64,000 nucleotides of DNA from a virus. Under the pieces are notes generated by a model, which saw only the letters and a list, made by a program, of their open reading frames with translations, ran no database searches and was not told where the DNA came from. The stretch's first letter is position 1; every line of letters begins with the position of its first letter. Positions 18,626-53,069 of the stretch are shown here, piece by piece. The stretch covers positions 62,001-126,000 of IMG/VR virus record IMGVR_UViG_3300024518_000034; one strand, written 5' to 3'. Made by a program: the position numbers and the translations under genes.

Positions 18626-19526
18626 ACCAAGAGTTGCTATAGTTATGACCACTATGAATCTTAAGTGGACAAAAATGGCATTACCAGATCTTATCGAGAA
18701 TACTAAGTATCCTTACGATCTAATATTGGTGGACGATTGCACTACAGATGAAGCTAGAAAATTTATCTGGAGTGGATATAAAGAAGTAGAAGACGCTTCG
18801 AAAGCGTTAAATAAGAAAATCGTTTGTTTTTCTACGGGAGAAGAGGACAGGCGAGGAGTTGCAGGATGTTGGAATATTGGGTTGGAAAAAGCGATAGAAG
18901 GTGATTATGAATATTGTTTGATTATGAACAATGACATAGCTTTTCCTGCACCAAAAGATGATAAATGCTGGCTTGAGAGACTAGTAGATTTGGGAGACAG
19001 TAATAAAGATTATGCTTGGCTGTCTCCAGCTTGGCATTGGACAGGTGAACCAGAAGCGGGAGGAATTAAGTGTTTTAAAGCTTCCTGTTGGGATTACACA
19101 GAAAAGCATAAAGATCAAATAGACGATGGAGGAATTGGGTGCTTCTTTATGCTTAGGATGGCTGATGTTAAGTGGATGAAGAATTCAGAAGAAGCTAAAG
19201 GTGAAGAGAATCATCCAGGCTTGTTTGATAAAACATCATATCCAACTAACTGGGAAGAAGTGGATTATTTGATAAGATTGAGGAGAAAAACCTCAATAAA
19301 GGTTAAAAATAAAACAGGAACATTTCACGCTGTAGCATTATATCATAAAGGTAGTGGTACAACGGGGTCGCCCGAATGGCATGGAAAAGTTAAAGTAGAT
19401 TACCAAACGGGACATGTCAACTTTTGTAAGAAATGGAATCTTCCTCATCCAAATAGTGGGTTTGGAGTGCATAATGCAATATATGAATATGTTAATAAAG
19501 ATGGCAAATGGGAAAAGGCAACATAG
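18618..19526 (+). CDS. GT2-like glycosyltransferase
   Basis: RVAIVMTTMNLKWTKMALPDLI and LILVDDCTTDEARKF form the GT2 nucleotide-binding start. GVAGCWNIGLEKAIEGDYEYCLIMNNDIAF carries the strand and the DxD-like NNDIAF metal site. TNWEEVDYLIRLRRK is the late acidic motif seen in rhamnosyltransferase-like GT2 enzymes. Length 302 aa. The start lies within the previous gene's last codons, eight bases of overlap. It is the last of the three GT2 genes, directly before glutamine synthetase. Confidence 0.82.
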   Translation: MSKPRVAIVMTTMNLKWTKMALPDLIENTKYPYDLILVDDCTTDEARKFIWSGYKEVEDASKALNKKIVCFSTGEEDRRGVAGCWNIGLEKAIEGDYEYCLIMNNDIAFPAPKDDKCWLERLVDLGDSNKDYAWLSPAWHWTGEPEAGGIKCFKASCWDYTEKHKDQIDDGGIGCFFMLRMADVKWMKNSEEAKGEENHPGLFDKTSYPTNWEEVDYLIRLRRKTSIKVKNKTGTFHAVALYHKGSGTTGSPEWHGKVKVDYQTGHVNFCKKWNLPHPNSGFGVHNAIYEYVNKDGKWEKAT

Positions 19527-19534
19527 GAGGTGAA

Positions 19535-20539
19535 ATGATTTTAGCAGAATACATATGGATAGATGGAACAACGCCAACAGCGAGGTTAAGATCAAAAACG
19601 AAAGTGTTAACTTTGGAAGACGAAGGAATTTGTCCAGATTGGAACTTTGATGGGTCGTCTACAAATCAGGCTGATGGAGACGATTCAGATGTTAAGCTTA
19701 AAGTTGTAAGAACGGTAAAAGATCCATTTAGAAAAGGTACGAATTACCTTGTTTTGTGTGAATGCACAACTCATGATGGCAAGCCTGTAGAAAGTAATGC
19801 AAGAGCTAAATTGAGAGCGCTGCTGGAGAGTGGTGTTAGAAAAAAGCATGAGCCGTGGGTTGGCTTTGAACAAGAATATACATTAATTGATGAAATATCT
19901 GGGAAACCAAAGGGATTCCCAGAGAGGGGATATCCATCACCGCAAGGGCCATATTATTGTGGAACAAATATACCAGGAAGGGTGGTAATGGAGAGGCATC
20001 TGCAGGCATGCATTGAGGCTGGGTTGAAAATTACGGGTACAAATGCTGAAGTCATGGTTGGGCAGTGGGAATATCAGATTGGCCATGGAGATCCGCTAGA
20101 GATTAGTGATCATCTGTGGATAGCTAGATATCTCTTGGAGAGGATAGCAGAGGAAGAGGGGGTAGGCGTAAGTTTGGAAAATAAACCAGTAAAAGGCGAT
20201 TGGAACGGATCAGGCGCACATTTAAACATATCTATTAAATCAACAAGAGAGAAAAACGGATTAGAGGCTATTGACAAAGTTATATCGAAGTTGAAAAAGT
20301 GTCACAGGGAACATATATTGGAGTATGGGCATGGGTTGGGAGAGAGACTTACTGGTGAACACGAGACTTGTCATATTGGTGAGTTTAAGTGGGGTGTAGC
20401 AGATAGAACTGCATCCATTAGAATTCCTTATAAAGTTTATAAGGATAAGAGGGGGTATTTTGAAGATAGAAGGCCAGGGGCCAATATTGATCCATATCGA
20501 GCATGTAGAAGGATGCTACAAACAATAGCAAGTGAATAA
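19535..20539 (+). CDS. Glutamine synthetase, type II (GSII-like)
   Basis: This enzyme would make glutamine from glutamate, ammonia and ATP. The order of motifs is that of the short, eukaryotic-type GSII family. They are WNFDGSSTNQA in the N-terminal beta-grasp, FEQEYTLID, GTNAEVMVGQWEYQIG (glutamate site), DWNGSGAHLNIS (ATP/Glu site), HETCHIGEFKWGVADRTASIRIP, and GYFEDRRPGANIDPY with the catalytic ED-RRP. At 334 residues it matches GSII (~350) rather than GSI (~470), and it lacks the GSI adenylylation loop. AGGAGG four bases before ATG 19535 fixes the start. It lies between a glycosyltransferase and an HNH gene. Confidence 0.92.
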   Translation: MILAEYIWIDGTTPTARLRSKTKVLTLEDEGICPDWNFDGSSTNQADGDDSDVKLKVVRTVKDPFRKGTNYLVLCECTTHDGKPVESNARAKLRALLESGVRKKHEPWVGFEQEYTLIDEISGKPKGFPERGYPSPQGPYYCGTNIPGRVVMERHLQACIEAGLKITGTNAEVMVGQWEYQIGHGDPLEISDHLWIARYLLERIAEEEGVGVSLENKPVKGDWNGSGAHLNISIKSTREKNGLEAIDKVISKLKKCHREHILEYGHGLGERLTGEHETCHIGEFKWGVADRTASIRIPYKVYKDKRGYFEDRRPGANIDPYRACRRMLQTIASE

Positions 20540-21026
20540 AAAATGTACAAAGTGTAATTCAAGTAAAGATATTTCTAATTTTTATAAAGATAAGCACAAT
20601 AAGGATGGGTATAATTATAGATGTAAATTTTGTGTGAATCAAGGAAATACGTGCAGTGAATGCGGTAAAAGTATTACAAAAAGATCAAAATATTGCGATA
20701 GGTGTTGTAAAATTGGAGTGAAAAATCCTGACTGGAAGGGCGGCAGAGTTGTAAGAGGGTCTGGCTATGTTAGGGTTAAGATGCGAGATCATCCGAATGC
20801 GCACGTTGATGGCTATGTATTTGAACACGTAATGATAATGTCTAAAATGATAGGAAGACCATTGTTAAAAAAAGAAACAGTACATCATAAAAATGGAATT
20901 AAAAATGATAATAGACTAGAAAATCTTGAATTGTGGAGTTCAGATCATCCTTCTGGTCAAAGAGTAAAAGATTTAGTAAAGTGGGCTAAAGAGATACTTA
21001 GAAAATATGGTGATAGATGCGACTAG
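20532..21026 (+). CDS. HNH endonuclease with N-terminal zinc finger
   Basis: The GTG start overlaps the glutamine synthetase stop by eight bases. The N-terminus has repeated Cys pairs (KCTKCNSS, CKFC, CSECGKS, CDRCC) that form one or two zinc fingers. The nuclease core is in the C-terminal half: FEHVMIMSKMIGRPLLKKETVHHKNGIKNDNRLENLELW, the HNH pattern with HH and two Asn. This arrangement is typical of phage free-standing homing-type endonucleases. Like the HNH gene after recA, it sits between two intact genes with overlapping ends. Confidence 0.82.
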   Translation: MNKKCTKCNSSKDISNFYKDKHNKDGYNYRCKFCVNQGNTCSECGKSITKRSKYCDRCCKIGVKNPDWKGGRVVRGSGYVRVKMRDHPNAHVDGYVFEHVMIMSKMIGRPLLKKETVHHKNGIKNDNRLENLELWSSDHPSGQRVKDLVKWAKEILRKYGDRCD

Positions 21027-21580
21027 AACTTGGACCAGGAAACGATCCGTCACCGGGTTTTGATTACTATGTAGACATTGCTCCTCTTGATCATGTAACT
21101 CATGTGCTTGATTTTGCCAAACAAGGACTGCAAGGTTTTGAGGATAACAGTCTTGATGAAATCTTAGCTATACATTTTCTTGAGCATTTACCACAAGGCA
21201 AGCAAAGTTATTTTTTTGCTGAATGTAAGAGAAAACTAAAAGTGGGCGGCAAGCTTGTAGTACATGTACCAAACTTAGAAACGATATTTAGAGCATATGA
21301 GTGTTTTAAAAATAATAACCAATATGATGCGCTTATGACAGAGCTTCAATCGATGTTATTTGGTGTACACAATGGTGATGTTTATTCTGTGCATAAAATA
21401 GCGTATAATTGGCAAATATTAGAGAAAATGTTTCACAATCATGGGTATGAGCCTGTGAGAAACCTAACAGGAATAAAAAAGGACAGACACACTGTTGGTT
21501 GGGAGTGGGTCACAAAGTATATAAGAGATGCTGGTGGAGTCACACCAGAATTTAGTTTAATAGTAGAAGGGAAAAAATAA
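21017..21580 (+). CDS. Class I SAM-dependent methyltransferase
   Basis: LELGPGNDPSPGFDYYVDI is a degenerate SAM-binding motif I with the acidic residue of motif II (VDI). LDEILAIHFLEHLP is the post-II/motif III region, in the ubiE/SAM-dependent methyltransferase_11 style. KLKVGGKLVVHVPN is motif IV. Length 187 aa is that of a bare catalytic domain. The GTP-like VYSVHKIAYNWQILEKMFHNHGYEPV tail matches proteins annotated as predicted SAM-dependent methyltransferases in polysaccharide clusters. The substrate is unknown; a sugar or glycan is plausible from the neighbours. Confidence 0.75.
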   Translation: MRLELGPGNDPSPGFDYYVDIAPLDHVTHVLDFAKQGLQGFEDNSLDEILAIHFLEHLPQGKQSYFFAECKRKLKVGGKLVVHVPNLETIFRAYECFKNNNQYDALMTELQSMLFGVHNGDVYSVHKIAYNWQILEKMFHNHGYEPVRNLTGIKKDRHTVGWEWVTKYIRDAGGVTPEFSLIVEGKK

Positions 21581-22560
21581 TGAAATCACCGGGAAAAAAG
21601 TTTAAAGAATTAATCGAAAAAGATGGATATATTTTTACAGGTGGAGTATACGATGCTATATCTGCAAAAGTAGCAGCGATGGCTGGAATGAAGGCTTTGT
21701 ATTTGTCAGGATATTCTCAGTCATTGGGGTTGCTTGGAAGATCAGATATGGAATTTGTACAGAGACATCAGGCTGTTGACAATTCGAGAAGAGTAGCAGA
21801 GTCACTAGAAGATGGCGGATTTGATGTCCCAGTAATCGCAGATGCAGATACAGGCTATGGGTCAGTTAATCAGGTTCAATACACTGTGAGGTCGTTTGAG
21901 CGTGCTGGTGTTGCAGGTGTACATCTAGAGGATCAAACGATTCCTAAGAGGTGCGGGCATATTGCAGGAAAGACAGTGCTTCCTATGGAGGAAAGCGTTG
22001 GAAAGATTGCAGCAGCAGTTGATGCAAAAACGGACAAGGATTTCATTATTATAGCAAGAACTGATGCATTGGGTGCAGCCGGTGGATCTATGGAAGATGC
22101 AGTTAAGAGAGCTATCGCGTACCACGACGCAGGTGCTGACATGGTATGGTGCGAGTTTGGCAGTGCATCTAGAGAGTTAGCTAAAGAGTTTGCATATCTT
22201 ACAACATCGTTAAGACCAAAAATGGGTTTGGCTTTTAACTATTCTTCGTCATTTAAGTGGCACGAGCAAAAAGAGCCTATGGTCGCTGAAGAATTGCACG
22301 AGATGGGCTATACATTTATGTTTGTAACATTGTTTGGTATTCATGCTGCAACGCTAAGCTTGTATAATCATTTTGAAAATATGTATGTAGACGGACCAGT
22401 GGCTCAGTGGGATTTAGAAGTGCTTAAGAAAAATCATCCAACGGAGAGTCATCACGTCATGGGAGATACTGCAACATATCAAGCAGTAGAGCAGAAGTTT
22501 CTGCCAACTGTGGCAACTGAAAGAATTGAAGCATCAGAAGGATATAAGGAAGAAAAATAA
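21580..22560 (+). CDS. Isocitrate lyase (short form, ICL/PEPM superfamily)
   Basis: Isocitrate lyase splits isocitrate into succinate and glyoxylate. The catalytic signature KRCGH is present with C125. GVYDAISAKVAAMAGMKALYLSG and VIADADTGYG (metal-binding Asp residues) precede it, and IIIARTDALGAAGG follows. The tail separates this from methylisocitrate lyases: FNYSSSFKW matches the ICL SPSFNW motif, and MGYTFMFVTLFGIHA, HPTESHH and TERIEASEGYKEEK match the ICL C-terminus. At 326 residues it lacks the long insert of the E. coli enzyme (434 aa). It is followed at once by a CitE-like gene (22562), pairing the two halves of a glyoxylate-shunt-like route. Confidence 0.85.
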   Translation: MKSPGKKFKELIEKDGYIFTGGVYDAISAKVAAMAGMKALYLSGYSQSLGLLGRSDMEFVQRHQAVDNSRRVAESLEDGGFDVPVIADADTGYGSVNQVQYTVRSFERAGVAGVHLEDQTIPKRCGHIAGKTVLPMEESVGKIAAAVDAKTDKDFIIIARTDALGAAGGSMEDAVKRAIAYHDAGADMVWCEFGSASRELAKEFAYLTTSLRPKMGLAFNYSSSFKWHEQKEPMVAEELHEMGYTFMFVTLFGIHAATLSLYNHFENMYVDGPVAQWDLEVLKKNHPTESHHVMGDTATYQAVEQKFLPTVATERIEASEGYKEEK

Positions 22561-22561
22561 T

Positions 22562-23551
22562 ATGCATCCAAGTGAAGCGTTAGTTGAAAGAGGGACTAAG
22601 GATATACCAACAATGTCGCCAGTTGAACATTTCTGCGGGACGGAAAAGTTTGTAAAGAAAGCGATGAAAATTCAGCAAGAGAGAAATGGTGATTTTGACA
22701 TTACTATCGATCTGGAAGATGGTGCGCCAAAAGGTAAAGAGAAAGACAACCTTGATATGGCTATTGCTATGATCAAGTCAGACGACAATAAGTTTAATAG
22801 AATAGGTGTACGTATCCATGACCCAGGAAACGATTGGTGGTTTAAAGAGGCTAATTTATTGAGAGAAGAAGTTGGAGATAGATTAGCTTATATAACTTTG
22901 CCAAAAGTTCTAGGTGCGGAAGATGTAATGAAAATGAGAACAACGCTTTTTAGGTCAAACCTTTCTCTGCATGTAATCATTGAAACGCTTGAGGCGTTTC
23001 AGAATTTAGATGACATTTTAAAAGTACACAATGTAGATTTAGTAGATTTTGGCCTTATGGACTTTACATCTGCCCACCAGGGAATTCTTTCAAGAGATGT
23101 AATGAAATCGCCGCAGCAGTTTACAAACCCATTGATGCAATATTATAAGTCACAGTTTGTGGCAAAAGCCTTGGCAGCAGGTAAAGTGCCAGCACACAAT
23201 GTAACAGTGGATGTTGGTAAAAAGGACTTAGCATATAAAGACGCAGCAACAGCAAGAAACGATTTCGGCTTCTTGCGTATGTGGTCCGTCTTTCCTGCTC
23301 AGATAGATGAAATTATGAGAGGCATGGCGTCAGCATATAATCTCTTGCAGTTGAAGGCGTATTCTGATATCCTATGTAAGGCTCAAGAAGCGGACTGGGG
23401 TCCAATCGGTTATATGGGTAAGATGGAAGACAGAGCAACGTATAGACTTTATTGGCAGACTCTGAAGAGAGCAAGAAGTGTAACTGGAGTTGAAATTCCA
23501 GCAGAAGCAGAAGAAAGATTTTTTAAGGACGTTAAGCTAGTGGGAGCATAA
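22562..23551 (+). CDS. CitE / malyl-CoA lyase-like aldolase (HpcH/HpaI superfamily)
   Basis: This TIM-barrel lyase family cleaves or forms citryl-, malyl- or related CoA esters; some members act as malate synthases. The marks are ITIDLEDGAPKGKEKDN (the DLEDxx metal/CoA motif), RIGVRIHDPG, ITLPKV, HVIIETLEAFQNLDDIL (catalytic Glu in the I-E-T motif), and VDFGLMDFTSAHQG (second metal-binding Asp). The C-terminus FGFLRMWSVFPAQIDEI matches the CoA-binding end. Length is 329 residues. ATG 22562 is one base after the isocitrate lyase stop. From this pairing it is inferred to condense glyoxylate with an acyl-CoA, but the exact substrate cannot be read. Confidence 0.75.
   Translation: MHPSEALVERGTKDIPTMSPVEHFCGTEKFVKKAMKIQQERNGDFDITIDLEDGAPKGKEKDNLDMAIAMIKSDDNKFNRIGVRIHDPGNDWWFKEANLLREEVGDRLAYITLPKVLGAEDVMKMRTTLFRSNLSLHVIIETLEAFQNLDDILKVHNVDLVDFGLMDFTSAHQGILSRDVMKSPQQFTNPLMQYYKSQFVAKALAAGKVPAHNVTVDVGKKDLAYKDAATARNDFGFLRMWSVFPAQIDEIMRGMASAYNLLQLKAYSDILCKAQEADWGPIGYMGKMEDRATYRLYWQTLKRARSVTGVEIPAEAEERFFKDVKLVGA
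22981..23001 (+). repeat. Perfect 8-bp inverted repeat in the CitE-like gene
   Basis: TGAAACGC (22981-22988) and GCGTTTCA (22994-23001) form a perfect stem around TTGAG. It is coding DNA without a T-tract. Confidence 0.6.
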
Positions 23552-23554
23552 AAA

Positions 23555-23905
23555 ATGTATTTAAACAAGTATCAAGAAGAAGCGACAAGAACAGCTAGGA
23601 ATTTTGAAGACGTTGAAATGGGGCCAACCAAGTTGGCCCTAGCTAATTGGGCGCTAGGTTTAGCAGGTGAAGCAGGAGAGGCGGCAGAGCTTGTAAAAAA
23701 GCATGTATTTCACGGACATGAGTTAGATTTGGCTGAAGTTAGAAAAGAGCTAGGTGATGTGTTGTGGTATATAGCTAATCTGGCTGAAACTGTGGGACTG
23801 GAAATGGAAGATATAGCTAAGGCTAATATTGAAAAGTTGAAAGCTAGATATGGTGATGGGTTTTCAGAAGAGAAATCTCAAAATAGAGTAGAATATAGCA
23901 ACTAA
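23555..23905 (+). CDS. MazG-like nucleotide pyrophosphohydrolase
   Basis: An all-helical NTP pyrophosphatase. The metal-binding motif EAGEAAELVKKH (ExxE) and the second acidic pair KELGDVLWYIANLAE (ExxD) are both clear. Length 116 aa is that of a single MazG-like domain. Members hydrolyse NTPs or dNTPs; in phages they are proposed to lower (p)ppGpp or to clean unusual nucleotides. It lies after the isocitrate lyase/CitE pair, and a perfect GGGCCAA/TTGGCCC hairpin occurs at 23621-23639 in its 5' part. Confidence 0.88.
   Translation: MYLNKYQEEATRTARNFEDVEMGPTKLALANWALGLAGEAGEAAELVKKHVFHGHELDLAEVRKELGDVLWYIANLAETVGLEMEDIAKANIEKLKARYGDGFSEEKSQNRVEYSN
23621..23639 (+). repeat. Perfect 7-bp inverted repeat in the mazG-like gene
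   Basis: GGGCCAA (23621-23627) and TTGGCCC (23633-23639) pair around CCAAG within coding DNA. Confidence 0.6.
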
Positions 23906-28477: not shown

Positions 28478-29939
28478 ATATAGGCTACATCAATTAACAG
28501 ACGAAGAACTGTGTAGTGATAGTATGGTTAGAAGTGCTGCTGATGAGGAAAATTATCCTGGGTTTGAATTTAGACCGCTAAGAAAAAAGGATTATTTTAG
28601 TCCAGAGAAAGAGATGGAAGTGCCTATGGCTCCTATGGATTTATATAATGAATTAGGAGAAGCGATAACAGAAGAAGAAAGACAGGTAGAACAAGGAGGA
28701 TTTCCTTCTATACCTGAAAAAGAAAGAAACCTTCCTCAAATGAGGGAGGAAAGAAGAGATCTGGAAGATCCAGAAGCTGCAATGCGTGTGTTAGGAGTAT
28801 ATTCTGAAAGATTTGAGGAGATTGCTGATAAGGTTTTTCAAATAAAGCGAGGATTGAAATCTATCACTGACGAGATTGAAAAAAAGAAAGAAGAACATAA
28901 AGCTAATGTTGAAATTGTAAGAACGTTAGCGATACGTGATAAAATATATCACACAATGAACACGGCAATAATACCTATATTTAAAACACATAGGAGAATA
29001 ATATGGGCAGTCCAGCAAGAAATCAAAAGGACAACTAAAGAATCTAGTTGGTATACAACACCTGAAGAGATTGAAGAGTTAAACGCTAAATATCCAAGAA
29101 GAGAACCTTTCAGATATGAAACTACGTCAAAAGGCGTTCGTTTCTTGAGAATGAGAGAGTTTAAGGATAGGTGGGTAGATGATAGAGAAGAAGAAAATAA
29201 AATCTATCAAAACATGGGCAATGCTGTAGCTTCTGCGTGGCAATCCTATGAGAGAGCGCTGAGACTTAAGGGTGAATTTTTGATAAGATATGCACAGCAG
29301 GATAATCTCTTAATGGCCCTAGAGAGTCTCGCAAATGATATGGAAGTTTTGGCGCAAGCAGCTTCGGAATTGGCAGAGCGAGATAGACAGACGGAAATGG
29401 CACTTGGGGCAGAATTGGAGATGCCTAAGGCAGCAAAATTAATTTCCCCAGATAACTTTTCTAAGATAGCTGTTGAAACTTTAGATGAGTTTTTGCAGCC
29501 GCCAATGATGTCAGATTTAGACGAAGAGGAACAAGGAATTCCTCCAGCCCAGCCAATAATGGATGATGGGACTCTAGAGCCTATTCCAGTAGACGATGAT
29601 GAATTTTTAAGACTTAAGTTTCCTGAAAATGATAGGATGCCTGAGTCGATGTGGGCAAAAATTCAATTTGCTGGAGCTAAGAATCTTTTAATAAGTATAA
29701 CTTATACAAAGATCACCCCACCTGAAGAAGGAATGACTAAGTCGTATGTCGTTGAACCATATTCGTTTAGATTGAAGCGACCAAGGCGCACAGGAGGCGG
29801 CTCACAGTATTATTTCTTTGCATATGATACAGAGGATCACCATATTAAAGGTTTTATATACAGGCGTATTCAGAGTATAGAAATATTGCCAGAGAGTTTT
29901 GATCCTAGATGGGAGGTTGAATTTCATTGGGCAGATTAG
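28443..29939 (+). CDS. Large protein with C-terminal WYL-like domain
   Basis: Residues ~100-330 are helical and probably coiled-coil (EEIADKVFQIKRGLKSITDEIEKKK; ALESLANDMEVLAQAASELAER). The last ~90 residues read as a WYL-type fold: a strand ISITYTKI, then SYVVEPYSFRLKRP, then QYYFFAYDTEDHHIKGFIYRRIQSIEIL. These correspond to the P.xL, Y.xAYD and R.F.xxRI positions of WYL domains. WYL domains bind ligands or nucleic acid in bacterial regulators and defence proteins. A GTG start at 28413 is possible, but ATG 28443 is taken; neither has an ideal site. It overlaps the small membrane gene upstream and APS kinase downstream. Confidence 0.7.
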   Translation: MENIQKKKKLLKYRLHQLTDEELCSDSMVRSAADEENYPGFEFRPLRKKDYFSPEKEMEVPMAPMDLYNELGEAITEEERQVEQGGFPSIPEKERNLPQMREERRDLEDPEAAMRVLGVYSERFEEIADKVFQIKRGLKSITDEIEKKKEEHKANVEIVRTLAIRDKIYHTMNTAIIPIFKTHRRIIWAVQQEIKRTTKESSWYTTPEEIEELNAKYPRREPFRYETTSKGVRFLRMREFKDRWVDDREEENKIYQNMGNAVASAWQSYERALRLKGEFLIRYAQQDNLLMALESLANDMEVLAQAASELAERDRQTEMALGAELEMPKAAKLISPDNFSKIAVETLDEFLQPPMMSDLDEEEQGIPPAQPIMDDGTLEPIPVDDDEFLRLKFPENDRMPESMWAKIQFAGAKNLLISITYTKITPPEEGMTKSYVVEPYSFRLKRPRRTGGGSQYYFFAYDTEDHHIKGFIYRRIQSIEILPESFDPRWEVEFHWAD

Positions 29940-30451
29940 GTAAGTGTATTTGGTTATATGGGTTGTCAGGATCGGGAAAGTCCACGATTGCAAATGAGCT
30001 TTTGATGAGGTGGGGGCCGTTTCACGTCACTTTATTAGATGGAGATGAAGTGAGAAAAAACTTATCTTATGGGTTAGGATTTTCTAAAGAGGATAGAGAA
30101 AGACACGCACTGAGGGTGGCGTGGGTTGCAGCAGAAATAGTAAGACATGGAGGAACTGCAATAGCTGCTTTAATTACACCTTATGAATCTACTAGAGAAA
30201 AAATAAGAGAAATTGTAGGAAAAGAAAATCTTATTGAAGTTTATGTGGATACTGCCTTAGAGGAGTGTGAAAAGAGAGATCCTAAGGGGTTGTATAAGAA
30301 AGTTAGAGCGGGCGAAATTAAAAATTTTACTGGAATAAGTGATCCTTTTGAGTTTCCAAAAGAAGATCCAGACGTAATTATAGATACTTCAAAATGCTCA
30401 CCAATTGATGCTGTGGGCAAAATATATAAAGTTTTAATGGACAATGAATAG
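29927..30451 (+). CDS. cysC: Adenylylsulfate (APS) kinase
   Basis: APS kinase phosphorylates APS to PAPS, the universal sulfate donor. Walker A is GLSGSGKST (residues 12-20). LLDGDEVRKNLSYGLGFSKEDRERH is the APS-binding region, and KRDPKGLYKKVRAGEIKNFTGISDPFEFP the mobile lid, both diagnostic of CysC. Length 174 aa is typical. The start is probably TTG 29927, because no ATG or GTG occurs before the first strand and GGGAGG is ten bases upstream. It overlaps the WYL-like gene by 13 bases and the following WYL-like gene by eight. No sulfotransferase is visible in the window, so use of the product is unknown. Confidence 0.88.
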   Translation: MGRLGKCIWLYGLSGSGKSTIANELLMRWGPFHVTLLDGDEVRKNLSYGLGFSKEDRERHALRVAWVAAEIVRHGGTAIAALITPYESTREKIREIVGKENLIEVYVDTALEECEKRDPKGLYKKVRAGEIKNFTGISDPFEFPKEDPDVIIDTSKCSPIDAVGKIYKVLMDNE

Positions 30452-46978: not shown

Positions 46979-47052
46979 GCCTCCGTAACTCAATTAGGTA
47001 GAGTACCCGCCTTTTAAGCGGCACAGTCTTGGTTCGATTCCAAGCGGAGGTA
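46979..47052 (+). tRNA. tRNA-Lys(TTT)
   Basis: Acceptor GCCTCCG/CGGAGGT, T arm with loop TTCGATT, and anticodon loop CTTTTAA on a CCGC/GCGG stem give anticodon TTT. CCA is not encoded. First gene after the tRNA-array promoter. Confidence 0.88.
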
Positions 47053-47074
47053 TAAGAAAAGGGAGGGTAGTAAT

Positions 47075-47455
47075 TTGGCAAAGCAAAAATATAGGTTGAC
47101 ACCACCAACAATTCATCGTAAGATTAGAGACGAGAAGAGAACGGTGGCGTCAGAGAAGTATGGCAAGAAGACTAAGTATCGTATTGGTTTTGTACAAAGA
47201 GAAACAGTAGCAGGATTAGTTAAGCATATTTATATTGATCCTCGCCCAGTAAGAGATGAACCTGGAGTTTTCACAAGTACAGAAGCTTACATTACTCAAA
47301 GTAATCATTTGGATACTAAGTTTAGTGATGTAACTAAAACACCAACTGGTAAGGTTTTCTTCAGATGGATCGATAGGCAGACGTTAAGATCTTTAAGAAG
47401 AAAGATGACTTGGGCCGGTATAAAATTAGTAAAAAAGCAAACAGTAACAGTTTAA
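47075..47455 (+). CDS. Hypothetical basic protein, 126 aa
   Basis: Start is TTG 47075, eight bases after GGGAGG; no ATG exists in frame nearby. The protein is basic with beta character (YRIGFVQRETVAGLVKHIYIDPRPV; VFFRWIDRQTLRSLRRK). It might be a small nucleic-acid-binding or internal virion protein. No family is recognised. It lies between two tRNA-Lys genes. Confidence 0.65.
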   Translation: MAKQKYRLTPPTIHRKIRDEKRTVASEKYGKKTKYRIGFVQRETVAGLVKHIYIDPRPVRDEPGVFTSTEAYITQSNHLDTKFSDVTKTPTGKVFFRWIDRQTLRSLRRKMTWAGIKLVKKQTVTV

Positions 47456-47661
47456 TATAACGTGCAGCGCACAGGTTGCGGGCTAATTGGGAGTCTAGTG
47501 GCAGATGCAGAAGCGGTAAACCCAATGGATCTGAAACTACAAGTACACGTTAAATATTACCGAGCGGTAAAAAGGAGTAGCAAAAGCGGCTGAAGTCGGT
47601 ATAATATTACCGAGCGGTAAAATTAGTCGCTTATCAAGACAGCCTGGAAAGACAGGCAACT
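47456..47661 (+). other. Structured non-coding segment between tRNAs, with two 19-bp repeats
   Basis: No ORF or complete tRNA fits here. The 19-base sequence AATATTACCGAGCGGTAAA occurs at 47553-47571 and again at 47603-47621, exactly 50 bases apart; each contains TTACC/GGTAA. Around the second copy, TCGGTA/TACCGA and AAGCGGCT/AGTCGCTT form nested stems. GCCTG/CAGGC around GAAAGA follows at 47642-47658. Upstream, AACGTG (47459-47464) and CACGTT (47546-47551) bracket a segment that has an inner ATTGGG/CCCAAT stem. This looks like a structured RNA, or processing hairpins for the tRNA transcript. Confidence 0.5.
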
Positions 47662-47734
47662 GGGAACGTAACTTAATTGGCAAAGCACCTGACTCTTAAT
47701 CAGAGAGATGGAGGTTCAAGTCCTCCCGTTCCTA
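47662..47734 (+). tRNA. tRNA-Lys(CTT)
   Basis: Acceptor GGGAACG/CGTTCCT, T arm GGAGG/CCTCC with loop TTCAAGT, and anticodon loop CTCTTAA give CTT. CCA not encoded. It is a second lysine acceptor beside tRNA-Lys(TTT). Confidence 0.85.
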
Positions 47735-47747
47735 TTAGAAACAAAAT

Positions 47748-47820
47748 GCCCTGCTTGCTGGATTGCAGACTAGGGACTTCTAATCCTTAAGACCATGTTC
47801 GATTCATGGGTGGGGTGCCA
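47748..47820 (+). tRNA. tRNA-Arg(TCT)
   Basis: Acceptor GCCCTGC/GTGGGGT with wobble pairs, T arm CCATG/CATGG with loop TTCGATT, anticodon stem AGGGA/TCCTT with loop CTTCTAA (TCT), discriminator G, encoded CCA. It reads AGA, the dominant arginine codon of the phage genes in this window. The D arm is short. Confidence 0.8.
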
Positions 47821-47933
47821 GATATGAAAAGCACATTGGAAAGAATTAACGTAAAGAAACTTTTAGAGTTTTGCAATAAGTTATTTGGGCCAAAGGTTGC
47901 AAAAGAAATGGAAGCTTTGAATAAGAAAAAGAT

Positions 47934-48008
47934 GGAGAGGAAGTCAAATGGATAGACGCTGTTCTGATACGACAGTTTCAGCAGGTTCGATTCCTGCCCT
48001 CTCTACCA
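47934..48008 (+). tRNA. tRNA-Ile(GAT)
   Basis: Acceptor GGAGAGG/CCTCTCT, D stem GTC/GAC, anticodon stem CTGTT/GACAG with loop CTGATAC (GAT), T arm GCAGG/CCTGC with TTCGATT, encoded CCA. Confidence 0.87.
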
Positions 48009-48066
48009 TAATTGTGTATAGAATATAACTAAAATACACTATAGTACTTATAATAGGGTGAAGAAA

Positions 48067-48303
48067 ATGAGTAGGTCATATAGAAAGACTCCAATTTGTG
48101 GAAACACAAAAGCGGAATCTGAAAAAGAAGATAAAAAGATTGCAAATAGAAGTTTTAGAAGAAAAACTAAAATGCAATTAATTAACTCAGATGAGGAACT
48201 TCTCTTTAACATAAGACAAGTTTGTGATGGACGAGGATATTATTCCAAGGACGGCAAACAGTGGATTGACAAAGAGGAACATCCTGATATAATGAGGAAG
48301 TAG
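48067..48303 (+). CDS. Small conserved phage protein (MSRSYRKTPI family), 78 aa
   Basis: The N-terminus MSRSYRKTPICGNTKAESEK and the following KKIANRSFRRKTK match a basic small protein that recurs, with unknown role, in many large phages. ATG 48067 starts exactly at the conserved motif; GTG 48058 is an alternative nine bases upstream. The C-terminal half ends in YYSKDGKQWIDKEEHP. It lies between tRNA-Ile and the tRNA-Leu(CAA) candidate. Confidence 0.72.
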   Translation: MSRSYRKTPICGNTKAESEKEDKKIANRSFRRKTKMQLINSDEELLFNIRQVCDGRGYYSKDGKQWIDKEEHPDIMRK

Positions 48304-48310
48304 TAAAGAA

Positions 48311-48386
48311 GGCGGTATAGCCCAACGGCAGAGGCAGCAGGTTCAAATTCTGTACAGTCTAGGTTCGAATCCTAGTATCGCTACCA
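48311..48386 (+). tRNA. tRNA with leucine anticodon CAA and a short variable loop
   Basis: Acceptor GGCGGTA/TATCGCT, D arm with GCC/GGC, anticodon stem GCAGG/TCTGT with loop TTCAAAT (CAA), a five-base variable loop ACAGT, T arm CTAGG/CCTAG with TTCGAAT, A discriminator, encoded CCA. Bacterial tRNA-Leu normally has a long class II variable arm, which is absent here. Its D and T arms closely resemble the TAA-anticodon tRNA at 48787. Confidence 0.72.
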
Positions 48387-48477
48387 AGATTCGCAAAGGG
48401 ACTCCCCGATGATGGAGATAATGTTTCATTTTTAAAATGATAGAAGTAAATTAATTAGAAGTAAAAAGTTATAACTC

Positions 48478-48503
48478 GCGGCTAAGTTTGCAAGCTTGGC
48501 CGC
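48478..48503 (+). repeat. Near-perfect 26-bp palindrome between tRNAs
   Basis: From GCGGC to GGCCGC the sequence folds as an 11-bp stem (two G:T pairs) with a TGCA loop. No T-tract follows; the mature tRNA-Tyr begins six bases later. It may be an RNA-processing signal or a protein-binding site. The preceding ~90 bases (48387-48477) show no gene. Confidence 0.6.
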
Positions 48504-48508
48504 ACCAA

Positions 48509-48591
48509 CCAGAGACTAGGCATCGGTGAGCCCAGCGGTCTGTAAAACCGCCGTGAAAACTGTGGGTGTTCGAATCACCCTCTCTGGACCA
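48509..48591 (+). tRNA. tRNA-Tyr(GTA)
   Basis: Perfect acceptor CCAGAGA/TCTCTGG, anticodon stem GCGGT/ACCGC with loop CTGTAAA (GTA), extended variable region as expected of bacterial tRNA-Tyr, T arm GGGTG/CACCC, encoded CCA. Confidence 0.92.
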
Positions 48592-48666
48592 TTATTACAT
48601 GTGATGTATATCGACAGGTTTGTGAGGACGACACCTGGCTTAATCAAAAAAATCATCCTTATTTAT

Positions 48667-48741
48667 GGGCCTATCATCTAAAGGTTAAGATACCGGACTG
48701 TCGATCCGGCGATTGGGGTTCGATTCCCCATAGGCTCGCCA
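48667..48741 (+). tRNA. tRNA-Asp(GTC)
   Basis: Acceptor GGGCCTA/TAGGCTC, anticodon stem CCGGA/TCCGG with loop CTGTCGA (GTC), T arm TGGGG/CCCCA with TTCGATT, G discriminator, encoded CCA. The 75-base gap before it (48592-48666) holds only a CAGGT/ACCTG hairpin. An ACAGG/CCTGT hairpin follows the tRNA. Confidence 0.92.
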
Positions 48742-48786
48742 GACAGGTTTTTCGGTTGTTCCTGTATAAATAAAACTCCGATTTAT

Positions 48787-48863
48787 GTCCCACTAGCCCA
48801 ACTGGCAGAGGTAAGCGGCTTAAACCCGTAACAGTCTAGGTTCGAATCCTAGGTGGGATACCA
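48787..48863 (+). tRNA. tRNA with leucine anticodon TAA and a short variable loop
   Basis: Acceptor GTCCCAC/GTGGGAT, D arm GCC/GGT, anticodon stem GCGG/CCGT with loop CTTAAAC (TAA), variable AACAGT, T arm CTAGG/CCTAG with TTCGAAT, A discriminator, encoded CCA. Like the CAA tRNA at 48311 it lacks a class II variable arm, and the two share D- and T-arm sequence, so they look like paralogues. Confidence 0.72.
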
Positions 48864-48915
48864 GCAAAATTTAAACGGCTTAACAATATGTACAACTTGA
48901 AGGGGGTGTCAGAAA

Positions 48916-49887
48916 ATGAAGTATAAACTGATGAATAGGAGGAACCGAGTGTACCAAAAACAGCTAGATTTAACTTTATCTGGTACTGGCCCTGTAAGAT
49001 TTCCAGCGTGGGTTGGCGTTCTAAGATATATAGAAGAAAGAGGATACCATATACGTAGACTTGCCGGTACATCGGGTGGCGCATTAGTTGGCGGTTTATA
49101 CGCGGCTGGGATGTCAGTAGACGACTTGGAAAGTGTTCTACTTAAAACAGATTATTCGGATTTCGCTAGGACTAGTTGGTGGAGAGTAGCAAAAGCTATT
49201 GCTTGGCCAAAAGCTTTTGGTGGCGGCTATATGAATAACGGGTATAAGTTAGAAAAGTTTCTACATGGTCTTATTGGAAAGAAATCTTTTAAACACGCAA
49301 AAGGATTACATATATTTACTACAGATATGTGTAATGGCGTATCTAAGATTTTTAATTGGAAAGATGACTATCATTATTCAATAGCTAAGGCTATTCGAGC
49401 AAGTATTTCTTTACCTATCATCTGGAATGGTGTACCATATAAGTACAAAAAGGGACACAGAGTGAAGGGGATAAAGAGAAGAAGAACTGTTTTGATGGAT
49501 GGCGGTTTAAGAAACAATTTTCCAATTGATTACTTTGAACCAACAGATTTGGATGTAATAAGTGGAAAGAAAGTCCCACTTGTTGGGTTTACAATTGAGC
49601 ATGATTTTTGTACAATTAAAGAACAGTATTCGTTTAAGGATATTGGTGGATCAGTTATTTCAAATATGATCGGAGCAGCAGATCGAAAATATGAGGAAGA
49701 CAGTAAAGGAAATTACATAATGTTGACTCATGGCGATCTGGATGATGGAAACCCTTACGAGTTTGATATAAATAATAGCGTAAAGGCAAAGTGGATTGAA
49801 GCAGGGTATAAGGTAGCAAGAGATAACTGGGGCGATTTAATTAATACCTCAGAAAAAGAGGTTGACAAACCTGTTGCTCAGAGATAA
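48916..49887 (+). CDS. Patatin-like phospholipase
   Basis: An acyl hydrolase with a Ser-Asp dyad. The oxyanion-hole region is LTLSGTGPVRFPAWVGVL, the nucleophile elbow is LAGTSGGALVGGLYAAGM (GxSGG), and the catalytic Asp is VLMDGGLRNNFP (DGG/A). Length 323 aa covers a full patatin domain. GGGGG lies upstream of ATG 48916. It could attack host membrane lipids at lysis or entry; phage patatins are known but uncommon. The oxyanion loop GTGPVR departs from the usual GGGxxG. It is the largest protein gene within the tRNA array. Confidence 0.85.
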   Translation: MKYKLMNRRNRVYQKQLDLTLSGTGPVRFPAWVGVLRYIEERGYHIRRLAGTSGGALVGGLYAAGMSVDDLESVLLKTDYSDFARTSWWRVAKAIAWPKAFGGGYMNNGYKLEKFLHGLIGKKSFKHAKGLHIFTTDMCNGVSKIFNWKDDYHYSIAKAIRASISLPIIWNGVPYKYKKGHRVKGIKRRRTVLMDGGLRNNFPIDYFEPTDLDVISGKKVPLVGFTIEHDFCTIKEQYSFKDIGGSVISNMIGAADRKYEEDSKGNYIMLTHGDLDDGNPYEFDINNSVKAKWIEAGYKVARDNWGDLINTSEKEVDKPVAQR

Positions 49888-49954
49888 CATAGTACTAGAG
49901 GTTAAAATTTAAGGGAAAATTTGGTTTGCTTTTTAGCAGAAAGGAAGTTTAGTT

Positions 49955-50548
49955 ATGACAGAAATGGAATTGTTTGTAAGAAGTTTGCTTCATCATGGTG
50001 CTGATTTCATGGTTGGTATGAAGGGGCAGGATTCGAAGCAGTTGGCGGTAAAGATTGGTACGATTGCTGCGGTTTTGGTAGGTATTTATTTGAGTAAGAA
50101 AGTTTGGGGCGGATATCGTCGTAACTTTAGCTTTTCTAAGAAACTGGTTTACGTTGGATCGAAGAAGTTGGCAGTTGAAGGCGGTTGGGGCGGAATGCTC
50201 TTGCTTCCAACAGCAGTCGTAGAAACTGTTTTGGTTCCGCTGTATCTCCTTCTAGGTTGCTTCTCGCCTCGTAGCGATGAAGAAAAGCAGAAGATGCTAA
50301 ATCAGGATAAGGATGTTGTTAAGACTCTTGATCGCCACAGCGGTCTTCAGGAAAATCTAAACGAACGTCTTATGGAGTCTGAAGATAAGGTTGCAGATCT
50401 GGAAGCACACATTAAGAGATTGACAGATAGTGTGGGCAAAGTTCTTTCAGAAGTAAAGAAGAACAGACAGGACGCTCCAACTAGACGTATCGCAAGACCA
50501 GCAGCAAAGCAGTATAGCGATTATCAGTACGCTGATAACGATATGTAA
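49955..50548 (+). CDS. Membrane protein with C-terminal coiled coil, 197 aa
   Basis: Two hydrophobic spans are seen: KIGTIAAVLVGIYLSKKVW (residues ~33-51) and MLLLPTAVVETVLVPLYLLLG (~80-100). A coiled coil follows (QENLNERLMESEDKVADLEAHIKRL) and the tail is basic then Tyr-rich. Codons favour CGT/CGC arginine and GTT valine, unlike the AGA-rich neighbours, which may mean high expression or a different origin. GAAAGGAAG precedes the ATG. The 67-base gap before it contains no feature beyond this site. No family recognised. Confidence 0.65.
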   Translation: MTEMELFVRSLLHHGADFMVGMKGQDSKQLAVKIGTIAAVLVGIYLSKKVWGGYRRNFSFSKKLVYVGSKKLAVEGGWGGMLLLPTAVVETVLVPLYLLLGCFSPRSDEEKQKMLNQDKDVVKTLDRHSGLQENLNERLMESEDKVADLEAHIKRLTDSVGKVLSEVKKNRQDAPTRRIARPAAKQYSDYQYADNDM

Positions 50549-50556
50549 GAAACAAA

Positions 50557-50576
50557 TAGCCTAAGAAATTAGGCTA
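50557..50576 (+). terminator. Hairpin before tRNA-Glu; weak terminator or processing signal
   Basis: TAGCCTAA/TTAGGCTA with a GAAA tetraloop, directly after the membrane-protein stop and five bases before tRNA-Glu. Only TCTT follows, so transcription probably continues into the tRNA. Confidence 0.5.
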
Positions 50577-50581
50577 TCTTA

Positions 50582-50654
50582 GGCCCTGTAGTTTACTTGG
50601 TAAGAACGCCAGGCTTTCACCCTGGAAGATCGGGTTCGAATCCCGGCAGGGTCA
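50582..50654 (+). tRNA. tRNA-Glu(TTC)
   Basis: Acceptor GGCCCTG/CAGGGTC, anticodon stem CCAGG/CCTGG with loop CTTTCAC (TTC), T arm TCGGG/CCCGG with TTCGAAT. CCA is not encoded. Confidence 0.9.
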
Positions 50655-50685
50655 TTATTTTTTAAACATTGGCAGAGGGTATAAA

Positions 50686-51129
50686 ATGAAAACTTGTATT
50701 ATTATTGCTGGACTACCAGGAAGTGGTAAAAGTAGTCTAGCAAGAATTTTAGCTAGTATGTTTAGTTTCAACACTAAAATAATTTGTACTGATGATTATT
50801 TTGTAAATGAAGAAACTGGAGAATATGAATTCGATGTTAAGGATTTACATCGAAACCACAATAAAGCATTTAATGACTTTAAGAAGGCGGTACTTGGAAG
50901 AGGTATTGAGTATCATACAGTTATAGTATCAAACACTTGTACCCAAACTTGGGAATACAAGAGATACGAAGATTTTGCAAAAGAAAATGGATTTATAGTA
51001 TTTCCTGTTATTGTAAGAAAGAACAAAGAACAAGTTTATAAGAATTTGCATGGTGTTCCAGATGAAGTGGTGGATAAAATGCAAGCAAGACTTGTTCAAG
51101 ATTTCGTAACACCGAAATTGAAGAGATAA
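50686..51129 (+). CDS. P-loop kinase (AAA_33 / N4BP2-like polynucleotide-kinase type)
   Basis: CIIIAGLPGSGKSSLARIL is Walker A (GLPGSGKSS). ICTDDYFVNEETGEYEFDVKDLHRNHNKAF is the region typical of N4BP2/PNK-like AAA_33 kinases, and HTVIVSNTCTQTWEYKRYEDFAKENGF continues the family pattern. Length 147 aa. It would phosphorylate a nucleic acid 5' end or a small molecule. Lying in a tRNA array, a tRNA-repair role like T4 Pnkp is an attractive but unproven idea. Confidence 0.78.
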   Translation: MKTCIIIAGLPGSGKSSLARILASMFSFNTKIICTDDYFVNEETGEYEFDVKDLHRNHNKAFNDFKKAVLGRGIEYHTVIVSNTCTQTWEYKRYEDFAKENGFIVFPVIVRKNKEQVYKNLHGVPDEVVDKMQARLVQDFVTPKLKR

Positions 51130-51132
51130 ACT

Positions 51133-51199
51133 GGGCGACCCCATGGTGGGACAGTGGACTTACATTCCATTAGATCAGGTTCGATTCCTGGGTGGCCTA
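51133..51199 (+). tRNA. Atypical tRNA-Val(TAC) candidate
   Basis: Anticodon stem GTGGA/TCCAT with loop CTTACAT (TAC) and T arm TCAGG/CCTGG with TTCGATT are good. The acceptor GGGCGAC/GTGGCCT has a G:G mismatch, position 8 is C instead of T, and the D arm is shrunk to CCCA/TGGG with a three-base loop, giving only 67 bases. It may be degenerate or need repair. CCA not encoded. Confidence 0.55.
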
Positions 51200-51355
51200 T
51201 TACCAGAGGTATAAACGTAAACGTAACCAGCATGAGTTTGACGAGTGAAGGCGTTAACCGTAAAGCGGCGAACCGGTACGAAGTCGCACGCCACAACGGG
51301 GCAGGGAATAGTGTGAAATATGTGTGCGTGACGATCAGGAGAGACTGATAGGTTT
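51200..51355 (+). other. GC-richer non-coding segment with possible 38-codon ORF
   Basis: The 156 bases between two tRNAs are richer in G+C than their surroundings. GGCGT (51250-51254) and ACGCC (51288-51292) can pair, and smaller stems (CCG/CGG) lie inside. An ATG at 51232 opens a 38-codon frame ending at 51348 without a clear ribosome binding site. Either a structured RNA or a tiny gene is possible; I cannot decide. Confidence 0.35.
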
Positions 51356-51431
51356 GCCCCTGTAGCATAATTGGCAGTGCAGCACTTTTGTAATGTGCAG
51401 ATTCCGGGTTCGAATCCTGGCAGGGGCTCCA
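51356..51431 (+). tRNA. tRNA-Thr(TGT)
   Basis: Perfect acceptor GCCCCTG/CAGGGGC, anticodon stem GCACT/TGTGC (one mismatch) with loop TTTGTAA (TGT), T arm with TTCGAAT, encoded CCA with T discriminator. Confidence 0.9.
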
Positions 51432-51446
51432 GAGGGGGGCAAAAAA

Positions 51447-51836
51447 ATGAAAGTAAAGGTGTATTTAAAAAATAATGATCCTGAACTAGAAGAGGTTCTA
51501 GAGATGGAAAACATTAGACCGGAAAGCGTAATAGGCTTTAAAAGTATGCAAATCTTTGCTGCAACCGGAATGATGTCATTTACAACGCTAGATGGGACAA
51601 GGTGGGAAATCATTCCGAGAGAAATGATTGAAAGAATAACTTGTATACTGGATGACGATATCTCAGACAACACCGGAATGCCTTCCATTGAAGAAATTAG
51701 TGATGATGACATGGAAGAGTTTGAAATTGATATACCGGACGTTGACATTATAGATGGACAAGAAGAGATGGATTTTCTGCTAGGTGGAGATCTAGAGATT
51801 CAAACAGAAGAGGGCGATGAAGAAACTGCAGAGTAA
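51447..51836 (+). CDS. Hypothetical acidic protein, 129 aa
   Basis: ATG 51447 follows GAGGGGGG. The first ~65 residues are beta-rich (KVKVYLKNNDPELEEVLEMENI; MSFTTLDGTRWEIIPREMIERI). The rest is strongly acidic (DDDMEEFEIDIPDVDIIDGQEEMDF). It overlaps the lipoprotein gene by 20 bases. Family not recognised. Confidence 0.65.
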   Translation: MKVKVYLKNNDPELEEVLEMENIRPESVIGFKSMQIFAATGMMSFTTLDGTRWEIIPREMIERITCILDDDISDNTGMPSIEEISDDDMEEFEIDIPDVDIIDGQEEMDFLLGGDLEIQTEEGDEETAE

Positions 51837-52071
51837 GATTTTTATCATAGTACTGATTTTAATGCTTGCATTTGGATCAGGATGTGGTAGTATAGCATAT
51901 AGGCACCATAATAAGGGTGCAGATATACCATACGGCGGAACGATGTTAATTATTTATTGGTCGGCACTATCATTAAATCCATTTATTTTAATAGATTTGC
52001 CGGGTAGTTTTCTTGTAGACACAATATTACTTCCAAGAGACATTATATTAATGAATAGGGGAAAAAGATGA
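51817..52071 (+). CDS. YceK/YidQ-like lipoprotein
   Basis: The signal peptide KKLQSKIFIIVLILMLAFGSGC ends in lipobox GSGC. The mature part GSIAYRHHNKGADIPYGGT and IDLPGSFLVDTILLPRDI is the layout of YceK/YidQ (DUF1375) lipoproteins, including the D-P-G-S..D-T...P.D end. Length 84 aa fits the family. It would sit in an envelope membrane of a diderm host. It overlaps the next gene by four bases. Role in infection unknown; a superinfection-exclusion factor is possible. Confidence 0.72.
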   Translation: MKKLQSKIFIIVLILMLAFGSGCGSIAYRHHNKGADIPYGGTMLIIYWSALSLNPFILIDLPGSFLVDTILLPRDIILMNRGKR

Positions 52072-52412
52072 ATAAAGAAGTAGCTAAGAAATTTGGGAAA
52101 AGTGGATTGTTTTGCGGATTGGTGCTTTTGGCTGGTACTATAGTTTATGAAGTCGGTGATCGCATTCATCATCATGTGACTAGAACTGTGCAGGAAAAAG
52201 AAGCAGACATGAGAGCAGATTATCGCATCGTATATGATGGTGAGTATTATGCTGCACAAAAATATAGATCTGCTGAAGGGTGGTATTTTATAAATCTTTG
52301 GAATGGTGAAAACCACCAGAAATTTTATAAAGATAAGGTGAAAGTAAAAAAGGCTTTAGAAGTTCGTTTGCACGAACTGCATCCAGATATTTTCTTTAAG
52401 CCCGTTAAGTAG
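52068..52412 (+). CDS. Membrane-anchored hypothetical protein, 114 aa
   Basis: Residues ~13-29 (LFCGLVLLAGTIVYEVG) form a signal anchor. The soluble part is rich in Tyr, His and charged residues (DYRIVYDGEYYAAQKYRSAEGWYFINLW), suggesting a small beta-sandwich. Coupled to the YceK-like lipoprotein by a four-base overlap, so the two may act together at the envelope. Confidence 0.65.
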   Translation: MNKEVAKKFGKSGLFCGLVLLAGTIVYEVGDRIHHHVTRTVQEKEADMRADYRIVYDGEYYAAQKYRSAEGWYFINLWNGENHQKFYKDKVKVKKALEVRLHELHPDIFFKPVK

Positions 52413-52418
52413 CAAGAG

Positions 52419-52491
52419 TGTGGAGTGATGTAATTTGGTAGCATACGGCGCTGTTAACGCCTCTGTCGGGGTTCAAGTCCCTGCTCCACAG
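52419..52491 (+). tRNA. tRNA-Asn(GTT)
   Basis: Perfect acceptor TGTGGAG/CTCCACA, anticodon stem GGCG/CGCC with loop CTGTTAA (GTT), T arm CGGGG/CCCTG with TTCAAGT. CCA not encoded. Confidence 0.9.
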
Positions 52492-52558
52492 TTAGACTGA
52501 ATGTAATAAGAGTTACAATAACTGATGATGTTTGTAATGGTACGGACTCAGATAAGTA

Positions 52559-52578
52559 CCCACCTTCGGGTGTTTTTT
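52559..52578 (+). terminator. Intrinsic terminator
   Basis: CACC-TTCG-GGTG hairpin (52561-52572) followed by six T residues, ending the tRNA-Asn transcript. Confidence 0.65.
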
Positions 52579-52605
52579 AAATATTCTGAAAGATTTATGT
52601 TTTTT

Positions 52606-52693
52606 GAAGTATAGTATGTAGTACCTACTAACTTTTATTGACGTATGTCAGTCATTTCGCAGATATGATGTTAGTGGTACAATGTGTACTAAC
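52606..52693 (+). promoter_or_regulatory. Candidate promoter/operator region with inverted repeats
   Basis: GTACCTACTAAC (52621-52632) and GTTAGTGGTAC (52670-52680) are near-perfect inverted copies 37 bases apart. A third half-site GTACTAAC lies at 52686-52693. Between them are TGACGTATGTCA (a gapped palindrome, 52639-52650) and a TATGAT -10-like box (52664-52669). Upstream, TATAGT (52610-52615) could be another -10. The arrangement suggests a regulated promoter for the gene at 52713. Confidence 0.5.
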
Positions 52694-52712
52694 AGTAGAT
52701 GGTTAGGAAATA

Positions 52713-52991
52713 ATGCTGGAAGATTTAAGAACAAAGAAGAAAGTAAAATTAAAGAAATTGAAAAAGAGATATCAGAATTGCAACATTGTAGAAAAGATAT
52801 GGCGTAGAAGATGGTATCTTTTAATACCGTACCACACTTTTAGGTTTTATTATTATACGAGGAAGAAGAGTAGTTTTAGGATGTCTTTGAGGCATTGTTA
52901 TAAACTTGCAGTTGGGATGGCTCAATATAAAATGAACTGGATGTATGGTTGGAAAGAAGTAAAAGAGAGAATAGAAAATAAGTTAAAATAA
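52713..52991 (+). CDS. Hypothetical strongly basic protein, 92 aa
   Basis: It is rich in Lys, Arg, Tyr and Trp (KKKVKLKKLKKRYQ; IWRRRWYLLIPYHTFRFYYY), with a helical second half. It could be a small nucleic-acid-binding or membrane-active protein. It follows the inverted-repeat promoter region and ends one base before tRNA-Pro. No family recognised. Confidence 0.6.
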   Translation: MLEDLRTKKKVKLKKLKKRYQNCNIVEKIWRRRWYLLIPYHTFRFYYYTRKKSSFRMSLRHCYKLAVGMAQYKMNWMYGWKEVKERIENKLK

Positions 52992-52992
52992 A

Positions 52993-53069
52993 CTACCTAT
53001 AGGCTAATTTGGCAAGTCGCTCGGTTTGGGTCCGAGAGAGTGGAGGTTCAAATCCTCCTAGGTAGACCA
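52993..53069 (+). tRNA. tRNA-Pro(TGG)
   Basis: Perfect acceptor CTACCTA/TAGGTAG, anticodon stem CTCGG/CCGAG with loop TTTGGGT (TGG), T arm GGAGG/CCTCC with TTCAAAT, A discriminator, encoded CCA. Last tRNA of the array. Confidence 0.93.

Follow-up and report, generated by a model that had tools for sequence, protein, structure and literature searches.

We found that a large phage-like genome encodes, in immediate succession on the plus strand, a predicted short isocitrate lyase (ICL) of the haloarchaeal type and a CitE/malyl-CoA-lyase-like enzyme, and that the two genes recur together in a second, dissimilar large phage. We consider it probable that these two auxiliary metabolic genes make up a minimal glyoxylate bypass of a non-canonical kind. 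Photosynthesis and nucleotide metabolism are familiar functions of phage auxiliary genes; a two-step module that spares carbon and is conserved in two such different large phages would supply concrete proteins for testing whether the host TCA cycle is redirected by phages. The window, meaning the whole stretch of 64,000 nucleotides that was analyzed, corresponds to bases 62001-126000 of an IMG/VR virus record of 192,308 bases (IMGVR_UViG_3300024518_000034). This record is phage-like, with PHROGs matches to a portal and a major head protein in addition to a DNA polymerase and a UvsX-like recombinase. Its major head protein (bases 148783-149637 of the record; L097:2783-3637) is most similar to that of Bacillus phage G (39% identity), which suggests a remote relationship to phage G and to other jumbo phages.

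Table 1. Features of the region around the ICL/CitE-like pair, in window coordinates.
Feature	Position	Strand	Basis
Short isocitrate lyase (ICL), 326 aa, haloarchaeal-type	21580..22560	+	Pfam PF00463/PF13714, AceA identity, diagnostic residues, AF2 fold
CitE-like / malyl-CoA-lyase-like enzyme, 329 aa, PDB 3QQW/3R4I type	22562..23551	+	phmmer, profile search, catalytic residues
KRCGH catalytic loop, ICL residues 123-127	21946..21960	+	Sequence; alignment to KKCGH of E. coli AceA
N-x-S-x-S-F-x-W motif, ICL residues 220-227	22237..22260	+	Matches AceA NCSPSFNW; lacking in PrpB
Methyltransferase-like gene, upstream of ICL	21017..21580	+	Stop overlaps ICL start by one base
MazG-like pyrophosphohydrolase, 3 bases downstream of CitE-like gene	23555..23905	+	Pfam PF03819, PHROG 229
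GlnII-type glutamine synthetase, second metabolic gene nearby	19508..20539	+	NCBIfam NF041605

The first gene is supported as a true ICL-type lyase, a prediction that draws on diagnostic residues, phylogeny and fold. Its product matches both the PEP_mutase (E=1e-41) and the ICL (E=3e-30) families of Pfam, and among cellular proteins it most resembles haloarchaeal AceA proteins about 345 aa long (43-48% identity) and one Chloroflexota protein (45.5% identity). A KRCGH active site, which the sequence-only reading had offered as evidence for an ICL, is indeed present at K123-H127, with C125 aligning to C195 of E. coli AceA, but it is not specific to ICLs: canonical AceA has KKCGH and E. coli PrpB has KRCGH too, so the motif is necessary and not diagnostic. 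The C-terminal motifs proposed in the same reading, by contrast, are specific to ICLs. N220, S222, S224, F225, W227, T250, and H255 of the phage protein correspond to N317, S319, S321, F322, W324, T351, and H356 of E. coli AceA, and the N-x-S-x-S-F-x-W motif, T250, and H255 are absent from PrpB. Seven positions are diagnostic (W190, S222, S224, F225, W227, T250, and H255; N220 is general). This set is common to E. coli AceA, all haloarchaeal AceA proteins sampled, Chloroflexota ICLs, and the enzymes of both phages, and neither PrpB nor any other PEP-mutase relative that we tested has the complete set. Two bacterial proteins carry part of the ICL signature (N-x-S-x-N-L-x-W, with Ser for Thr), and for these a specificity intermediate between ICL and other lyases is possible.

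In a tree of 45 sequences, a branch with 100/99 support separates the phage, haloarchaeal, and canonical ICLs from the other members of the superfamily, including PrpB; a wider tree with more taxa was less resolved, and its remaining branches formed a graded series. The AlphaFold (AF2) model of the phage ICL (pLDDT 89) superimposes better on solved ICLs (TMq 0.83-0.86) than on methylisocitrate and related lyases (TMq 0.71-0.78), although the top matches by E-value in a fold search with this model were methylisocitrate lyases. On the evidence of residues, tree, and fold coverage, we rejected the PEP-mutase/PrpB branch for the first gene. The curated ICL equivalog cut-offs are not reached by the phage protein (TIGR01346, 123.8 of 275.9; PRK15063, 129 of 562). 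However, the annotated AceA of Haladaptatus fails the same models (124.5 and 133.5, respectively), and thus these models do not cover short ICLs. The short haloarchaeal type is genuine, since deletion of aceA in Haloferax volcanii abolishes growth on acetate and the Haloferax ICL is biochemically known (PMC7746861).

The second gene is likewise supported, by homology, as a CitE/malyl-CoA-lyase-like enzyme with an intact metal-binding and catalytic set, in line with the initial description. It matches two proteins of solved structure over its full length, PDB 3QQW from Ralstonia eutropha (phmmer, 281.8 bits, residues 2-321, 98% of length) and 3R4I from Burkholderia xenovorans (phmmer, 221 bits), scores 600 bits in a profile search, and falls within the 3QQW/3R4I branch of the family tree (99/99). 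This placement comes from homology to 3QQW; the AlphaFold model of the protein, built with only two sequences, has a pLDDT of 50. Both structures are listed simply as CitE-like, with no assigned function (PMC3832036), and the pair would give this structurally solved, uncharacterized family its first functional hypothesis. All six catalytic residues found in 3QQW and 3R4I are kept (E52, D53, R84, E141, D167, and D290, with E141 and D167 as Mg ligands, R84 as the catalytic arginine, and D290 from the lid domain), the equivalents in Rhodobacter sphaeroides malyl-CoA lyase being E44, D45, R76, E141, D168, and D299 (PMC3832036). For both enzymes of the pair, the homologies lie well outside chance levels, and sequence alignments revealed no loss of catalytic residues.

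The phage protein shares superfamily and catalytic set with the malyl-CoA lyases of Rhodobacter and Chloroflexus and differs from them in carrying N213-V214 for G-P and Met166 for the alanine that, in the MCLR and MCLC groups of malyl-CoA lyases, invariably precedes the Mg-ligand aspartate. This position is Leu or Trp in malate synthases and Ala in malyl-CoA lyases, and large residues here have been argued to disfavor propionyl-CoA (PMC3832036). By that argument, Met166 suggests acetyl-CoA rather than propionyl-CoA as the substrate. The malyl-CoA thioesterase group was rejected as an identity for the protein, as that group has Glu at the position of the lid aspartate D290. We also rejected haloarchaeal malate synthase (AceB/HaloMS): the phage protein has no match to NF041315, lies on a separate branch, gives only E=0.04 in direct comparison with Haladaptatus AceB, and is 329 rather than 434 aa long.

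The two open reading frames are separated by a single base, as first described (the ICL stop codon TAA ends at 22560, the CitE-like ATG starts at 22562, and its stop ends at 23551). From this order and spacing the sequence-only reading had suggested a single transcript and coordinated use. Nearly all genes in this region lie on one strand and are packed equally tightly, so the gap by itself is weak evidence; the upstream methyltransferase-like gene is probably on the same transcript as the ICL gene. Promoter and terminator scans were uninformative, with promoter-like matches at the level of shuffled sequence. Three genes upstream of the ICL gene lies the glutamine synthetase gene, whose product matches NF041605 with E=1.7e-127 and 425 bits, under the 500-bit cut-off.

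Functional coupling is better supported than the spacing allowed, because the pair recurs in another phage and pairs of an ICL with a CitE-type enzyme recur in archaea and in a Chloroflexota genome. Single-sequence viral scans with the ICL or the CitE-like protein found nothing; pattern scans of IMG/VR with alignment queries, which have limited sensitivity, found one other contig with the pair, IMGVR_UViG_3300032132_000001 (395,473 bases; hereafter G001). In G001, both genes lie on one strand in the order ICL, RmlD-like (dTDP-4-dehydrorhamnose-reductase-like), CitE, with adjacent open reading frames overlapping by a few bases, and both proteins are 46-47% identical to those of the window phage. 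The two phage CitE proteins are sisters (100/100), as are the two ICLs (86/86), although the ICL relationship becomes weak (85/50) once more taxa are included. A canonical malate synthase (PF01274) was found in neither phage. G001 has a terminase match, and the head protein of the window phage has no match in it. The terminase match is split, its halves lying about 1.4 kb from each other in a single open frame of 1137 aa (L154/L155, G001 245826-247982), a pattern such as an intein would cause.

In cellular genomes, we observed that the short ICL recurrently lies beside some CitE-superfamily enzyme, the identity of which varies between lineages. The haloarchaeal short ICL gene is followed by AceB at seven loci and by a malyl-CoA-lyase-like enzyme of about 305 aa at four, and in one Chloroflexota genome an enzyme of this ~305-aa type is encoded upstream of the short ICL. 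The 3QQW/3R4I-type enzyme of the phages is a third type of partner. The closest parallel, the aceA-aceB operon of Haloferax and Haladaptatus, encodes a short ICL of this type (about 45% identical) with matching diagnostic residues, and a CitE-superfamily enzyme follows aceA, in Haladaptatus one base later; unlike there, the phage partner belongs to a subfamily other than HaloMS. None of 80 ICL loci from cellular genomes showed a short ICL adjoining a 3QQW-type CitE, nor did our partial sampling of Pseudomonadota and Chloroflexota, and the cellular 3QQW/3R4I-type genes examined do not adjoin a short haloarchaeal-type ICL.

From the sequences, residues, phylogeny, predicted ICL fold, and conserved pairing we infer the substrates, products, and infection role of the pair as follows. 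The short ICL would cleave isocitrate to succinate and glyoxylate. The CitE-type enzyme, using Mg2+ and the conserved Arg/Asp pair, would then condense glyoxylate with the enolate of acetyl-CoA, and the resulting malyl-CoA could be converted to malate by the same enzyme or by a host thioesterase. During infection, the two CO2-releasing steps of the TCA cycle would thereby be skipped, and the carbon retained as succinate and malate may feed the synthesis of nucleotides, amino acids, and glycans.

A phage glyoxylate shunt is not in itself new, contrary to the initial impression that none was established: aceAB genes have been reported from the Pacific Ocean Virome (Hurwitz et al. 2013, PMC4053976), and an aceBA operon from the 179-kb marine phage TARA_ERS478052_N000008, which also carries surface-polysaccharide genes (Nishimura et al. 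2017, PMC5332604). There, too, a phage-encoded shunt was proposed as reprogramming of host metabolism. Those genes were reported as AceA/AceB, whereas here a short haloarchaeal-type ICL is joined by a 3QQW-type CitE; with the TARA phage compared by description only, what is new is this non-orthologous version of the shunt and its retention in two dissimilar large phages. ICL has also been reported from further viral genomes (PMC10721903, PMC12783922). Phage C48C1 (OQ984149) encodes a full-length ICL (L002:5911-7152) annotated merely as a hypothetical protein. Unlike the ICL of the window phage, it is of the canonical AceA type, has 413 aa, and exceeds the NCBIfam cut-off (618 bits against 562); we found no adjacent CitE or malate synthase gene. 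Literature searches on C48C1 and on malyl-CoA lyase as an auxiliary gene returned nothing. ICL matches in the phage collections also occur in short or bacterial-named records, which may be host sequence. More tentatively, and with rather less confidence than we place in the bypass itself, we suggest that large phages carry an independently assembled bypass that differs from the cellular shunts described, with a haloarchaeal-type ICL and a malate-forming enzyme of a third CitE-type class. If true, this would be the first function for the 3QQW/3R4I family, and ICL would have recruited CitE-type partners repeatedly.

The main rival concerns the second substrate, which would be pyruvate. The first enzyme would mainly convert 2-methylisocitrate to pyruvate and succinate, and the CitE-like enzyme would interconvert pyruvate plus acetyl-CoA and citramalyl-CoA, in propionate or mesaconate handling. 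We judge this unlikely, although several observations are consistent with it. Nine genomes from a single gammaproteobacterial order share a cluster that encodes a malyl-CoA-lyase-like enzyme, a MaoC dehydratase, a 3QQW-type CitE, and PrpB and that may reveal the cellular role of the 3QQW-type family; PrpB, a methylisocitrate lyase, yields pyruvate as its 2-oxoacid product, and this adjacency of 3QQW-type CitE to PrpB and a MaoC-type dehydratase keeps the pyruvate/citramalyl-CoA role in play. In Sphingobium and Cupriavidus, the 3QQW-type CitE adjoins MaoC or mesaconyl-CoA-hydratase-like genes. Moreover, the proline that crowds the methyl group of pyruvate in HaloMS aligns with V214 of the phage protein, which could leave room for pyruvate, and the phage KRCGH loop resembles that of PrpB. 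Against a methylisocitrate-cleaving first enzyme, every ICL-diagnostic position of the phage protein is of the ICL type and PrpB lacks them, the 100/99 branch separates the phage protein from PrpB, and the TM-scores favor ICL.

A role outside the TCA cycle, in which the two enzymes provide the surface-glycan cluster of the phage with an acyl or hydroxy-acid unit of an unusual kind, appears improbable. It would fit the position of the pair inside a run of glycosyltransferase genes and the RmlD-like gene between the two in G001; however, we recognized no acyltransferase or known malyl-glycan pathway, and in cellular genomes the homologues of both enzymes are grouped with genes of central carbon metabolism. 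Still less probable is that the genes are recently captured cargo whose function is not under selection in the phage: the pair is rare, yet both reading frames are intact in two phages whose copies share only 46-47% identity, every active-site residue is kept, and ICL and CitE genes travel together. Finally, we give very little credence to a first gene encoding another PEP-mutase-superfamily enzyme (oxaloacetate hydrolase, dimethylmalate lyase, or PEP mutase) misread as ICL, since its best pairwise PDB matches by E-value (oxaloacetate acetylhydrolase, petal death protein, and PrpB) span mostly the shared N-terminal two thirds, and residues, tree, and fold coverage favor ICL.

In addition, we noted other gene groups in the record. 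The window contains 12 clustered tRNA genes with small open reading frames between them (46979-53069), and within this region lies a gene for a patatin-like phospholipase (48916-49887, E=4e-25). At 29927-30451 of the window and at 126276-135341 of the record (L096), we found genes for an APS kinase, three sulfotransferase-like proteins (two of which do not reach the Pfam cut-off), a sulfatase, and an FkbM methyltransferase. The genome also encodes many glycosyltransferases, and this set of genes is a possible phage glycan-sulfation module.
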